This document shows, in pieces, positions 42,802 through 46,884 of a DNA stretch of 64,000 nt. Made by a program: the position numbers and the translations under genes. The notes beneath the pieces are model-generated. The model was given only the letters and a program-made list of their open reading frames with translations. It was not told the origin of the DNA and searched no databases. Position 1 is the stretch's first letter. Each line of letters starts with the position of its first letter. The stretch is from an uncultured bacterium (GTDB lineage Bacteria; DUMJ01), in the NCBI GenBank assembly GCA_937958695.1, contig CALGNK010000003.1:32457-96456 (forward strand), in the 5' to 3' direction.

Positions 42802-42867
42802 TCTTAAAAAGAATTTAATAATCTCTTAACTCTTTCTTAACATAATCTTATATTTATCTTAACATAC
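42802..42867. repeat. Array of six 11-bp TCTTAA boxes
   Basis: Units begin at 42802, 42813, 42824, 42835, 42846 and 42857, exactly 11 bp apart. TTAA stands at 42804, 42815, 42826, 42837 and 42859; the fifth unit has TTAT at 42848. Four units read TCTTAAC or TCTTAAA. The array lies between two convergent genes. Helically phased direct repeats of this type resemble PhoP/OmpR-class boxes (TTAACA every 11 bp in Bacillus); the binder is unknown. Confidence 0.7.
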
Positions 42868-42984
42868 TAGTTTTAATCTATATATAGATTTAAAGATTAA
42901 GATTTTTATAACTTAGCAGTCTAGTTATCTCTTAAACCTCCTCTTCATATATTTGGGCTAGGGGATCCTAGCCCAAAAATTTTT
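42868..42984 (+). ncRNA. Possible small RNA after the 11-bp array
   Basis: A TATATA at 42879-42884 could be a -10 box about 20 bp after the last TCTTAAC box. A transcript starting near 42890 would be about 95 nt and end in the strong terminator at 42952-42984. It contains CCTCCTCTTC (42937-42946), complementary to a Shine-Dalgarno sequence. The alternative is that this is only the 3' tail and terminator of the preceding lyase mRNA. Confidence 0.3.
42952..42984 (+). terminator. Rho-independent terminator
   Basis: A perfect 11-bp stem (TTTGGGCTAGG at 42952-42962, CCTAGCCCAAA at 42967-42977) with a four-base loop, followed by AATTTTT. It ends + strand transcription. On the - strand there is no U run after the stem, so hpt transcripts may not stop here. 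Confidence 0.85.
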
Positions 42985-43492
42985 ATTCCTCCAAGACAAC
43001 TATATCTAGTAGATTTCTATATCTCTCTTTATAATCTAGTCCATAACCTACTACAAACACATCGGGAATTTCAAATCCTCTATAATCTACAGGGATATCT
43101 ACTATACGTCTACTAGGACAATCTAAAAGTGTACAGACTTTTAGGGACATAGGGTTCCTTGCCCTTAGATTCCTCAAGAGATATCCAAGGGTAAGGCCAG
43201 TATCTACTATATCCTCAACAACGATAACATCCTTTTGATGTATGTCTACATCCAAATCCTTTGTAATCCTTACCACCCCAGAAGAACTTCCACTGTACTT
43301 AGATATAGCCATAAAGTCTATAATAAACGGTATACTAAGATATCGGGTTAGATCAATGGCAAAATATACAGCACCCTTTAAGATACATATCAAGATTGGT
43401 TCTCTCTCTGAATAATCTCTAGAAATCTCTCTACCAAGTTCTTCTATCCTTTTTTTAATCTCTTCTCTAGGAATCAACAGTCTCTCTTTCAT
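42983..43492 (-). CDS. hpt: Hypoxanthine phosphoribosyltransferase
   Basis: Purine salvage enzyme making IMP/GMP. The PRPP loop VIVVEDIVDTGLTLGYLL is clear, with CILKGAVYFAIDL and SKYSGSSSGVV and the C-terminal DVFVVGYGLDY that binds the base. Length of 169 is usual. Start overlaps the upstream kinase fusion gene by four bases, so the two are co-translated. The nucleoside importer at 14-19 kb could feed this pathway. Confidence 0.93.
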   Translation of the reverse strand: MKERLLIPREEIKKRIEELGREISRDYSEREPILICILKGAVYFAIDLTRYLSIPFIIDFMAISKYSGSSSGVVRITKDLDVDIHQKDVIVVEDIVDTGLTLGYLLRNLRARNPMSLKVCTLLDCPSRRIVDIPVDYRGFEIPDVFVVGYGLDYKERYRNLLDIVVLEE

Positions 43493-44418
43493 ATGAGTCC
43501 AAACTTCCTAAGTATATTCTTATAATCCTTCCCATATATCATCTTAATATTCACATCTGGATAAAGCTCCTTAAGCCGTTTAATCTTTCTATTCTTATAA
43601 TTAACTAGTCTTTGTCTTTGAGTTGTAAGCTCAATGTATAGGTCAAAGTCTGGCAGATAGAAATCTGGAGTAAAAGCAGAAATTATATTGCCTTCACTGT
43701 CACACTCTAGGATAAAGGTCTTAGGCTCATAAAGCCATCTAATTCCGTAAAAGTCTAAAAGTTTGGCAAACTCTTCCTCAGACGAATGGGCAAAGTGAGG
43801 AATATAACCTGTAGCATCTTTAGGATATTCAGAAACACCTTCGAATTTTACATAGCTATTTCTCTCTGCAATCTTTATTGCCCTTGTTATCATCTTAACT
43901 GCACCAGAAACATCAAAGTAATCCATATTTATTATAAGACTATAGAGAGAAGGATCGTGCCAATCTCCTCCAAATATCTTGTTTATATATAAGTCTCTTC
44001 TACGATCCTGCTCCGATATAAGTCTCAAAGCACTAACCTTATCCAGTTTATACTGTTTGATCACTTCAAGCACTCTACTTTCAATAGAACCGATAAGCTT
44101 TACATGAAATGCGTAGGGATGATTTCTAAAGAGGAACTGGCCTCCCCTTCCAAGAAGGACTATAGGCTTTTCCTCAGCTATTTCTAAAATAAGTCTATTC
44201 ATAAGTTCTATATACTTCTTTCTTGTATCACTAAAAGGCTGAATAGAACTCTCCTCTAAAGATTCTAACTGCTCTTCGGTAAGGCCATGCTTAACCATAG
44301 ATTCATTAATGTACTTCTTGTTTACAAGGAAAAACTTAAGCCCTTTAGCTAATCTCTCTGCAACCTCTGTCCCATTGCAACCAAACTCTCTAGATATGGT
44401 GATAATTTTTATATCCAT
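43489..44418 (-). CDS. Cytidylate kinase-like domain fused to PD-(D/E)XK nuclease-like domain
   Basis: Residues 1-185 match the cytidylate-kinase-like family (ITISREFGCNGTEVAERLA, YINESMV, LLGRGGQFLF, EQDRRRDLYI), whose P-loop lacks the usual GK[ST]. Residues 210-309 look like a small restriction-endonuclease fold: SSEEEFAKLLDFYGIRWLYEP (core EEEFAKLL, with E231), FTPDFYLP with D252, YIELTTQ with E263. The lysine expected after E263 is Thr, so cleavage activity is doubtful unless another Lys substitutes. The gene overlaps hpt. The fusion is unusual, and what it phosphorylates or binds is unknown. Confidence 0.65.
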   Translation of the reverse strand: MDIKIITISREFGCNGTEVAERLAKGLKFFLVNKKYINESMVKHGLTEEQLESLEESSIQPFSDTRKKYIELMNRLILEIAEEKPIVLLGRGGQFLFRNHPYAFHVKLIGSIESRVLEVIKQYKLDKVSALRLISEQDRRRDLYINKIFGGDWHDPSLYSLIINMDYFDVSGAVKMITRAIKIAERNSYVKFEGVSEYPKDATGYIPHFAHSSEEEFAKLLDFYGIRWLYEPKTFILECDSEGNIISAFTPDFYLPDFDLYIELTTQRQRLVNYKNRKIKRLKELYPDVNIKMIYGKDYKNILRKFGLI

Positions 44419-44489
44419 CTTAAGAATATTTTACCAAAAATAAACCCGTCCTCATAGTCTGATCTGTAATCACTTCTCAAAAAGAGATC

Positions 44490-44539
44490 TCCTTTCTGAT
44501 TAGAATTTGTATATTATAATAAAAGACAATCAGAAAGGA
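44490..44539. promoter_or_regulatory. 12-bp inverted repeat flanking a bidirectional -10 box
   Basis: TCCTTTCTGATT (44490-44501) and AATCAGAAAGGA (44528-44539) are perfect inverted copies 26 bp apart. Between them ATTATAAT provides TATAAT on both strands (44513-44520). The - strand copy would serve the kinase-hpt operon. It may be a two-site operator or a hairpin. Confidence 0.5.
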
Positions 44540-44592
44540 AACATATTAATTGTATTATACAAAATTTACCTAATCTCAAAAACAATAAACTG

Positions 44593-44667
44593 TTTTAATA
44601 ATTCTTTAATGTAGTATTAAATACCCCTTAATTAGTCTTTAAATAACACTTAAAGTAAAAGCTTTAA
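44593..44667. repeat. Second array of 11-bp phased TTAA boxes
   Basis: TTAA stands at 44595, 44606, 44617, 44628, 44639 and 44650, every 11 bp without exception, with a further TTAA out of phase at 44664. Flanks are mostly CT before and A or T after. It is 180 bp upstream of the kinase fusion gene and 62 bp before the next promoter. It resembles the array at 42802-42867. Confidence 0.7.
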
Positions 44668-44728
44668 TCTATAAACGTTATGACGTATAAGCATGGGGCA
44701 AAATTTTTAAGGAGATATACTTGGTCTG

Positions 44729-44757
44729 TTGCACTTGAAGACGTTTTCAAGTATAAT
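44729..44757 (+). promoter_or_regulatory. Promoter of the family-5 binding-protein gene with LacI-type operator
   Basis: TTGCAC (44729-44734) and TATAAT (44752-44757), 17 bp apart. The spacer holds ACTTGAAGACGTTTTCAAGT (44733-44752), a 20-bp palindrome with one mismatched pair and a central CG. Its core TGAAGACGTTTTCA differs from the catabolite-repression (cre) consensus at one position. A LacI-family regulator is inferred; its gene is not in the window. Confidence 0.65.
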
Positions 44758-44889: not shown

Positions 44890-46884
44890 ATGAAAAAGTA
44901 TTTATATAGATCTATTCTATTAGGATTGGTTATTATACTTCTAGCAAGTATAGTGCCTATGTCTTTTTCTCAGGAGGCAAAGTTTCATAAACAGTACAAT
45001 ACACCTACAGACTACTATAAGCTTACCGGTAAGAGGATAGCCAAGTATAACGAAGCCCCTATGTTAGCAGAACTTGTAAAACAGAAGAAATTACCTCCAG
45101 TAGAGCAGAGACTACCAAAAGAGCCTATCGTTATAGACCCCGTAGAAGAGATAGGACAGTATGGTGGAAGGGCTAGGGTCATAGGTCCTATAGATGGATA
45201 TGGAGATACAGAGGCATTTCGTCCCCATGAAGGTATTCTAAGAGTAGGCCAGGATGGATTTTCTGTAGTACCTAATATAGCAAAGAACTGGAGTTTTAGT
45301 GAAGGTGGTAAGGTTCTTACTATCTATCTACGTGATGGGATGAAGTGGTCAGATGGACAACCTTTTACAGCTGACGATATTATGTTCTGGTACGAAGATG
45401 TGTTATTGAACGACGAACTTATGCCAACGAAACCTGTAGAGTGGTCTCCTGGTGGGAAACTTATGAAGTTAGAAAAGATAAGTAAATATGCGGTTAAAGC
45501 TACTTTTGCCGTTCCTTATCCAACTGCAATCCTTCACCTAGCACATTCAGCAGGAGTAGCAGGAAGATTTTTCCTTCCTAAACATTATCTTAAGCAATTT
45601 CATCCTAAATATACACCTATGGATAAGCTATTAGAACTTGCCAAGAAGGATGGCTTAGATACGTGGTATAAACTATTCCAAAAATATGGAGATTACTATG
45701 GAGGTTCCGGTATAAGGATAGCTCCTGGCGCTCCTACCCTTCAGACATTCTATGTGGAGAAAAAGGGTTTAGACTTTGTTGTCCTAAAGAGGAATCCATA
45801 CTATTGGAAGGTAGATACTGCTGGTAACCAGCTACCCTATATAGATGAGATTTTTGTCTCAGATATTAGGAATAAAGAGGTAGCAAATATGAAGATAGCA
45901 GCAGGAGAAGTAGACCTAGCAGAGATAAATACTATTATGGAAGATTATCCATTCTACATGGAAAATAGAGAGAAGGGTAATTATAGAGTTCTACTCTGGC
46001 AATCAATCATAGGTGCAGATGTAGCTTATCAACTTAACCTTACTTATAAAGAAGACACAGTACTCAGAGATATCTTTAGGGATGTAAGATTTAGAAGAGC
46101 CCTCTCATTAGCTCTAAATAGGGACGAAATAAATAAGGTACTCTATCTAGGGTTAGGAACACCGAGACAAGCAACGGTAATTCCTCAGTCTCCTTATTAC
46201 GAGGAGGCTTTTGCCAAAGCTTATATAGAATATAATCCTAAGGAGGCTAATAGACTCTTAGATGAGATGGGGCTAAAGCGTGGACCGGATGGATATAGAC
46301 TGAGACCAGATGGTAAAAGACTAGAGATACTCCTCGAATATGAAGACGTAGAGACACCAAAAGGGAAGACATCTGAAATGGCGGTTCACTATTGGGATGC
46401 TATAGGAATAAAGGTAACTGCTAAGGAGATAAGTTCAAGTTTGAAGAGCCAAAGGACATCCGCAAACCTTATTCAGATGGGGTTATGGCACGCTGATAGG
46501 GCTGGATTTTTATTTACTGTAGAACCATACTATTGGGTCCCTACAGAGGTAAGAAGTGAAGCCCCTTGGTGTGTAGAATGGGCTAGATGGTTTGCTACTG
46601 GAGGTAAAGCCGGCGAAGAACCTCCCCCAGAGATAAAGAGGATAAGAGAAGCTTGGGAAAAGATGAAATCTACTATGAGTGAAAAAGAGAGGATTAAACT
46701 TGCCAAGGAGATACTCAAATCTAACGCAGAAAATCTATGGACCATAGGGACAGTTGGATTAGCTCCACATCCAGTTGTAGTAAAGAATAATCTAAGGAAT
46801 GTTCCTGAAAAAGGACTATGGGGTTGGGACCTAAGAAGGTTTACCTCCTATGCACCTGAGACATTCTTCTTTAAGCAGAAGTAA
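44890..46884 (+). CDS. Family-5 (Opp/Dpp-type) ABC substrate-binding protein
   Basis: 664 residues with a signal peptide (membrane core LLGLVIILLASIV, cleavage after SFS near residue 27). The SBP_bac_5 fold shows WSFSEGGKVLTIYLRDGMKWSDG (core LRDGMKWSDGQPFTADD) and RFRRALSLALNRDEIN. The protein is longer than peptide-binding relatives. In Thermotogales many proteins of this family bind oligosaccharides, and the carbohydrate setting suggests the same here. No permease or ATPase gene adjoins it, and a terminator follows immediately, so it is an orphan binding protein. Confidence 0.88.
   Translation: MKKYLYRSILLGLVIILLASIVPMSFSQEAKFHKQYNTPTDYYKLTGKRIAKYNEAPMLAELVKQKKLPPVEQRLPKEPIVIDPVEEIGQYGGRARVIGPIDGYGDTEAFRPHEGILRVGQDGFSVVPNIAKNWSFSEGGKVLTIYLRDGMKWSDGQPFTADDIMFWYEDVLLNDELMPTKPVEWSPGGKLMKLEKISKYAVKATFAVPYPTAILHLAHSAGVAGRFFLPKHYLKQFHPKYTPMDKLLELAKKDGLDTWYKLFQKYGDYYGGSGIRIAPGAPTLQTFYVEKKGLDFVVLKRNPYYWKVDTAGNQLPYIDEIFVSDIRNKEVANMKIAAGEVDLAEINTIMEDYPFYMENREKGNYRVLLWQSIIGADVAYQLNLTYKEDTVLRDIFRDVRFRRALSLALNRDEINKVLYLGLGTPRQATVIPQSPYYEEAFAKAYIEYNPKEANRLLDEMGLKRGPDGYRLRPDGKRLEILLEYEDVETPKGKTSEMAVHYWDAIGIKVTAKEISSSLKSQRTSANLIQMGLWHADRAGFLFTVEPYYWVPTEVRSEAPWCVEWARWFATGGKAGEEPPPEIKRIREAWEKMKSTMSEKERIKLAKEILKSNAENLWTIGTVGLAPHPVVVKNNLRNVPEKGLWGWDLRRFTSYAPETFFFKQK

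Follow-up and report, generated by a model that had tools for sequence, protein, structure and literature searches.

PHO boxes are built from direct repeats of 11 nt (PMC4415409). In cyanobacteria, the sites of SphR have the form CTTAACCT, repeated in tandem at least three times with linkers of 3 bp, while the pho boxes of E. coli sit 10 bp upstream of a TAN3T/A element (PMC1906773), at a strictly kept distance from the core promoter (PMC10294691). Direct repeats of this kind also serve ArcA of E. coli, whose sites comprise two to five repeats spaced 11 bp from centre to centre (PMC3798270). Literature searches on Bacillus PhoP boxes of the TTAACA type turned up no usable information. Among regulatory RNAs, RsaE/RoxS of Staphylococcus and Bacillus carry short, C-rich, unstructured stretches that can meet Shine-Dalgarno sequences, together with a strong terminator (PMC4409812).

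Here, we describe a PHO-box-type array in the genome of an uncultured bacterium. The window, that is, the whole 64,000-nt stretch of DNA that was analyzed, contains six TTAA units at 11-bp steps on the + strand (44595–44653), found by pattern search and supported by simulation. We read this array as a PHO-box operator-promoter which, together with a sister array some distance upstream, represents the + strand promoters of a single regulon, probably the Pho regulon (probability about 0.86).

Array geometry in the window and across the genus

A PHO-box assignment calls for at least two head-to-tail direct repeats of an 11-nt unit, a fixed distance to the -10 element with the -35 region covered, phosphate-acquisition genes downstream, and a PhoB-type regulator with a PhoR-type kinase in the genome. 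The six units in the window are repeats of this kind; at the other loci, the number of units ranges from three to six, usually four or more, and the core is YTTAA. An earlier note on this DNA had claimed an unbroken 11-bp phase, and every unit is where it should be, at 44595, 44606, 44617, 44628, 44639, and 44650. A further TTAA, at 44664, lies 14 rather than 11 bases past the last unit, and the predicted -10 hexamer TAATCT (44665–44670, + strand) begins inside it, 15 nt past the start of the last TTAA (44650). The spacers between units are not alike from one unit to the next. The partner array that the note had placed at 42802–42867 is also present, although its fifth unit is TTAT (42848) and its six units extend over 42804–42862 (+ strand). 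It is followed by the same hexamer, TAATCT (42874–42879, + strand), at the same 15-nt offset. The two arrays share their period and core, as the note had stated; their flanks, which it had described as different, share a TTAA-N10-TTAATCTATA element after both arrays.

We compared the genome of this window (G000; 2.09 Mb, 57 contigs) with two sister species of the same genus (G001 and G002). At least four units occur at eight places in G000, and the four-unit pattern recurs in both sister genomes, whereas 37 more distant genomes lack it. Read backwards as a control, it gave no match in the three genomes of the genus. Every array of at least four units in G000 lies between genes, and all of them except one, at a lacI-type gene, have a -10 element at the 15-nt offset. 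When ten array loci (corresponding to about eight independent ones, as the phoA and second solute-binding-protein promoters are probably related copies) were aligned by their last TTAA, TANNNT started 15 nt after it in nine; at any other offset from 5 to 35, it was found in at most three of the ten. With nine -10 hexamers at one fixed distance, the repeats therefore occupy the -35 region. A looser composite pattern with the spacing one base off gave as many hits as the controls, and a conserved three-unit match (G000:C1:17548 and its orthologues) was dropped as lying inside a coding gene.

Genes and putative small RNAs downstream of the arrays

At each array, genes were read on both strands, and the gene on the strand with the -10 element was taken as the target. 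The alkaline phosphatase gene phoA lies behind an array in all three species (L020 in G000, L086/L154 in G002, and L155 in G001), and pstS comes after it at the G000 locus. In G001, arrays also precede a 5'-nucleotidase gene (L124; Pfam 5_nucleotid_C) and a metallophosphatase gene followed by an SBP_bac_1 ABC transporter (L153). Two paralogous SBP_bac_5 genes lie behind arrays in G000, one in the window (44890) and one at L016. Phosphate-acquisition genes behind the arrays are thus represented by phoA, the 5'-nucleotidase, and the metallophosphatase-ABC operon, with the pstCAB operon not clearly included. The genes pstC, pstA, pstB, and phoU are present (the first three identified by sequence and order), and their operon has only a two-unit TTAACAATTTCTTAA without a -10 element at 15 nt. 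This two-unit element, upstream of pstC at L139 9165–9210, is kept in G002. No array was seen upstream of the second pstS or of the regulator gene.

The conserved targets also include some that are not obvious phosphate genes: a DUF4032 gene, a lacI-type gene, a small peptide gene, and putative small RNAs. The DUF4032 gene lies behind an array in three species. At the lacI-type gene, the array is conserved (L022 4053–4089, L151 6021–6057) and, at this locus alone, lacks a -10 at offset 15; it may serve as an upstream or repressing site. A gene for a hydrophobic peptide of 28 amino acids follows an array in all three species (L019 3830–3920 on the reverse strand, L147, and L148). Its frame is kept in the three species and it has a good ribosome-binding site, MMKRILIIFFGLSALLVLSSVGTLLKTF; the peptide has no Pfam match. 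Three candidate targets near arrays, rpmB/ilvA, leuD, and proA, were ruled out because the -10 elements lie on the opposite strand, facing putative small RNAs and the small peptide gene.

The sister array has no protein gene downstream, because its gap sits between two convergent genes. Instead, it faces a conserved block that we interpret as a putative small RNA of ~95 nt (42890–42985, + strand; predicted start), ending in a predicted intrinsic terminator (42952–42977, + strand) with a T-run on the + side only. This array is itself conserved in three species, with all 24 core columns invariant, compared to 23 of 35 spacer columns. Across the same species, the 70 nt at 42906–42975 are 97% invariant, with 57 bases as the longest invariant run, whereas the flanking genes are at 79% and 74%. 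The block has no ATG on the + strand. The body of the putative RNA contains ACCTCCTC, a Shine-Dalgarno-complementary stretch that is predicted to be unpaired.

Two more conserved non-coding blocks lie behind arrays, at L021 3880–3985 and L018 3955–4035 (reverse strand). They contain invariant runs of 53 and 83 bases, respectively, which extend into the terminator stems, and both have terminators and Shine-Dalgarno-complementary stretches. The putative RNAs of the window and L021 have TTAGCAGTCTAG in common, and those of L021 and L018 have AGGTAACCTC in common. None of the three blocks matches an Rfam family at gathering score, and the window block matches none even at E up to 1; nor does its putative RNA match RsaE/RoxS or any other Rfam covariance model. 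A search for further paralogues found none. Targets sought by pattern and duplex energy were not better than shuffled controls: the best pair, the proA start with the 42890 RNA (-33.4 kcal/mol), barely exceeded the best shuffle (-32.6). An own promoter and an own terminator, both by prediction, and a conserved non-coding body are all present. The stretch 42890–42985 and the L021 and L018 blocks are probably small RNAs, and this set is more novel than the array.

Origin of the array before the solute-binding-protein gene

A stretch of 145 bp around the array in the window (44570–44714, + strand) is 91% identical to the phoA-pstS promoter of G000 and its 5' leader (L020 4110–3966), and the likeness extends as far as the ribosome-binding site of phoA. 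The kinase and solute-binding-protein genes are ~200 bp apart in both sister species, which lack the promoter block; G000 has an extra ~265 bp here, consisting of an end fragment of an IS-like element and the promoter copy. The IS-like part (44459–44589), identified by comparison with the sister genomes, is the left part of the species-specific insertion and an end remnant of a repeated element. This element is present as a single remnant in G000, adjoining the copied phoA promoter, in about 14 copies in G002, and in several in G001. The promoter copy at the paralogous gene (L016) is more diverged, at 78% over 108 bp. The phoA promoter thus appears to have been copied in one piece. On sequence comparison, the array at 44593–44667 arose by recent duplication of the phoA-pstS promoter and was inserted before the solute-binding-protein gene.

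This target gene encodes an SBP_bac_5 extracellular solute-binding protein (44890–46884, + strand; translation and domain match). It has a second and older predicted promoter, TTGCAC-N17-TATAAT (44729–44757, + strand), with the palindrome CTTGAAGACGTTTTCAAG in the spacer; the palindrome and the -10 region are kept in both sisters. The palindrome, between -35 and -10, is possibly an operator for another regulator. A motif resembling it was seen in the leuD promoter (L145, L146).

Regulator, rival readings, and known systems

Regulators of the OmpR/PhoB type (PF00486) number one in G001, one in G002, and two in G000; therefore, exactly one is common to the three genomes. A PAS-containing kinase adjoins this shared regulator, which is encoded at L116 5467–6156; a PhoB-type regulator and an adjacent PhoR-type kinase are thus both present. 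The best solved-structure match of the regulator is RegX3, which has been named as a Pho regulator (PMC4415409). It scores 256.1 bits against the PhoB equivalog TIGR02154 (cut-off 296.2) and 295 against YycF, its top-scoring NCBIfam model (cut-off 340), and the partner kinase, for which PnpS is the best model, scores 364.4 bits against the PnpS/PhoR equivalog NF046044 (cut-off 400). All of these equivalog cut-offs are missed; thus, we refer to the two proteins as PhoB/PhoR-type without classing the regulator as PhoB itself. From its family, its uniqueness, and the target genes, we infer that the shared regulator binds the arrays. A second OmpR-type regulator with a kinase (L117 4768–6671) is found in G000 only, of the three genomes. 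It is unlikely to be the binder, because the sister genomes carry arrays but lack this second regulator.

Other explanations of the arrays were considered. A composition or repeat artefact without regulatory role, such as slippage in AT-rich DNA, would fit the frequency of TTAA, which occurs 438 times in this AT-rich window. However, the window contains the three-unit 11-bp pattern 6 times, where 0.03 would be expected, and of 300 order-3 Markov windows, each 64 kb long, 294 showed no chain of at least three units at 11 bp, the longest chain being four. When the local AT-rich gap was simulated 20,000 times with all periods between 8 and 15 allowed, chains again reached four units at most (seen 18 times), and never six. 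In the window itself, chains this long are found at 11 bp only, and other periods give none. Furthermore, the varied spacers are contrary to slippage, and the cores are invariant while the spacers drift and the -10 offset is fixed. Simulation and core-versus-spacer conservation rule out an artefact, to which we assign a negligible probability. The earlier note had seen the two arrays as bracketing a two-gene unit, with one protein acting on both sides by looping or as a nucleoid-type binder. They do flank an hpt phosphoribosyltransferase gene (42983–43492) and a cytidylate-kinase-like gene with a C-terminal extension (43489–44418) in the window, both identified by domain match and locus comparison. 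Nevertheless, this pair is on the - strand, whereas both arrays point to the + strand with -10 elements that face other genes, and the right-hand array is absent from both sisters, which keep the pair. Across 48 kinase loci, hpt and the kinase gene are adjacent in 47, a TTAA array is found beside the pair in two same-genus loci only, and 45 are array-free altogether; at L074, a three-unit match lies >3 kb away. The sister species and the wider kinase loci thus speak strongly against joint action on the pair, which we consider highly improbable. The two genes are neighbors rather than targets, and the pair is a bystander. There is good support for the note's other suggestion, a single regulon that has two target promoters.

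The strongest competitor to the Pho reading is that the arrays belong to a WalR/YycF-type regulon of the OmpR family, for envelope or general stress, of which phosphate genes are only a part. YycF is the top-scoring model for the regulator, the sister targets include the DUF4032 gene, the lacI gene, and the membrane peptide, and predicted YycF sites of S. epidermidis are TTAACA-like with an 11-bp step, one of them before pstS (PMC5405149). However, the array at 44593 copies the phoA-pstS promoter, several targets are phosphatases or nucleotidases, and no core envelope gene was seen among them. We therefore regard such a regulon as unlikely, although with a single shared regulator, phosphate and envelope functions may be merged.

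The kinase-like protein has a C-terminal domain of ~100 amino acids without a Pfam match. The kinase fusion is found next to hpt in many Bacillota-type genomes, and the Actinomycetota contig L074 matches only the C-terminal part of the protein.

Under the Pho reading, phosphate limitation would lead the PhoR/PnpS-like kinase to phosphorylate the one OmpR/PhoB-type regulator that all three genomes have. Dimers of this regulator would line up head to tail along the repeats, on a single face of the helix, and bring RNA polymerase to the -10 element, with transcription predicted to start near 44677 and 42886. In this species, the solute-binding-protein gene at 44890 would have gained phosphate control in addition to the older promoter (44729). 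As a promoter of the same type, the sister array at 42804 would drive the conserved ~95-nt RNA in three species. We give slightly better than even odds to a broader proposal: that the Pho regulon includes a 28-amino-acid membrane peptide and no fewer than three small RNAs whose motifs block Shine-Dalgarno sequences, such that the response to phosphate starvation takes place largely at the RNA level, and that whole copies of the phoA promoter, one of them next to an IS-like remnant, also recruit new transporter genes.

A TTAA array with a -10 element fifteen bases on would make regulon membership assignable from sequence alone, and a control code becomes readable for a lineage without close relatives in the genome set. 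The locus also provides a clean case in which a promoter was copied to a new gene, an event that can be dated because the sister species lack the copy, and indicates a set of small RNAs that are probably part of the phosphate response.

The arrays most resemble known sites in their geometry. Like the SphR Pho boxes, they have a YTTAA core, an 11-bp unit, and at least three units in tandem, and they too precede phoA and pst genes. They occur in another lineage, however, and are longer, with a stricter TTAA and a fixed 15-nt offset to the -10, and would also drive putative small RNAs. With the PhoB boxes of E. coli, they share 11-nt direct repeats that replace the -35 and keep a constant distance to a TAN3T -10, but the core is TTAA instead of CTGTCAT, and the distance to the -10 is about 8 bp (from the last 8-bp repeat) instead of 10 bp. 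ArcA sites likewise combine an OmpR-family regulator with 11-bp direct repeats, although regulator and core are different, and the arrays described here are uninterrupted and at one promoter position. RoxS is controlled by the OmpR-type regulator ResD. The putative small RNAs resemble RsaE/RoxS in their C-rich stretches that could meet Shine-Dalgarno sequences, their strong terminator, and OmpR-type control, which is proposed here; they differ in having no Rfam match, another sequence, and phosphate as the proposed signal.
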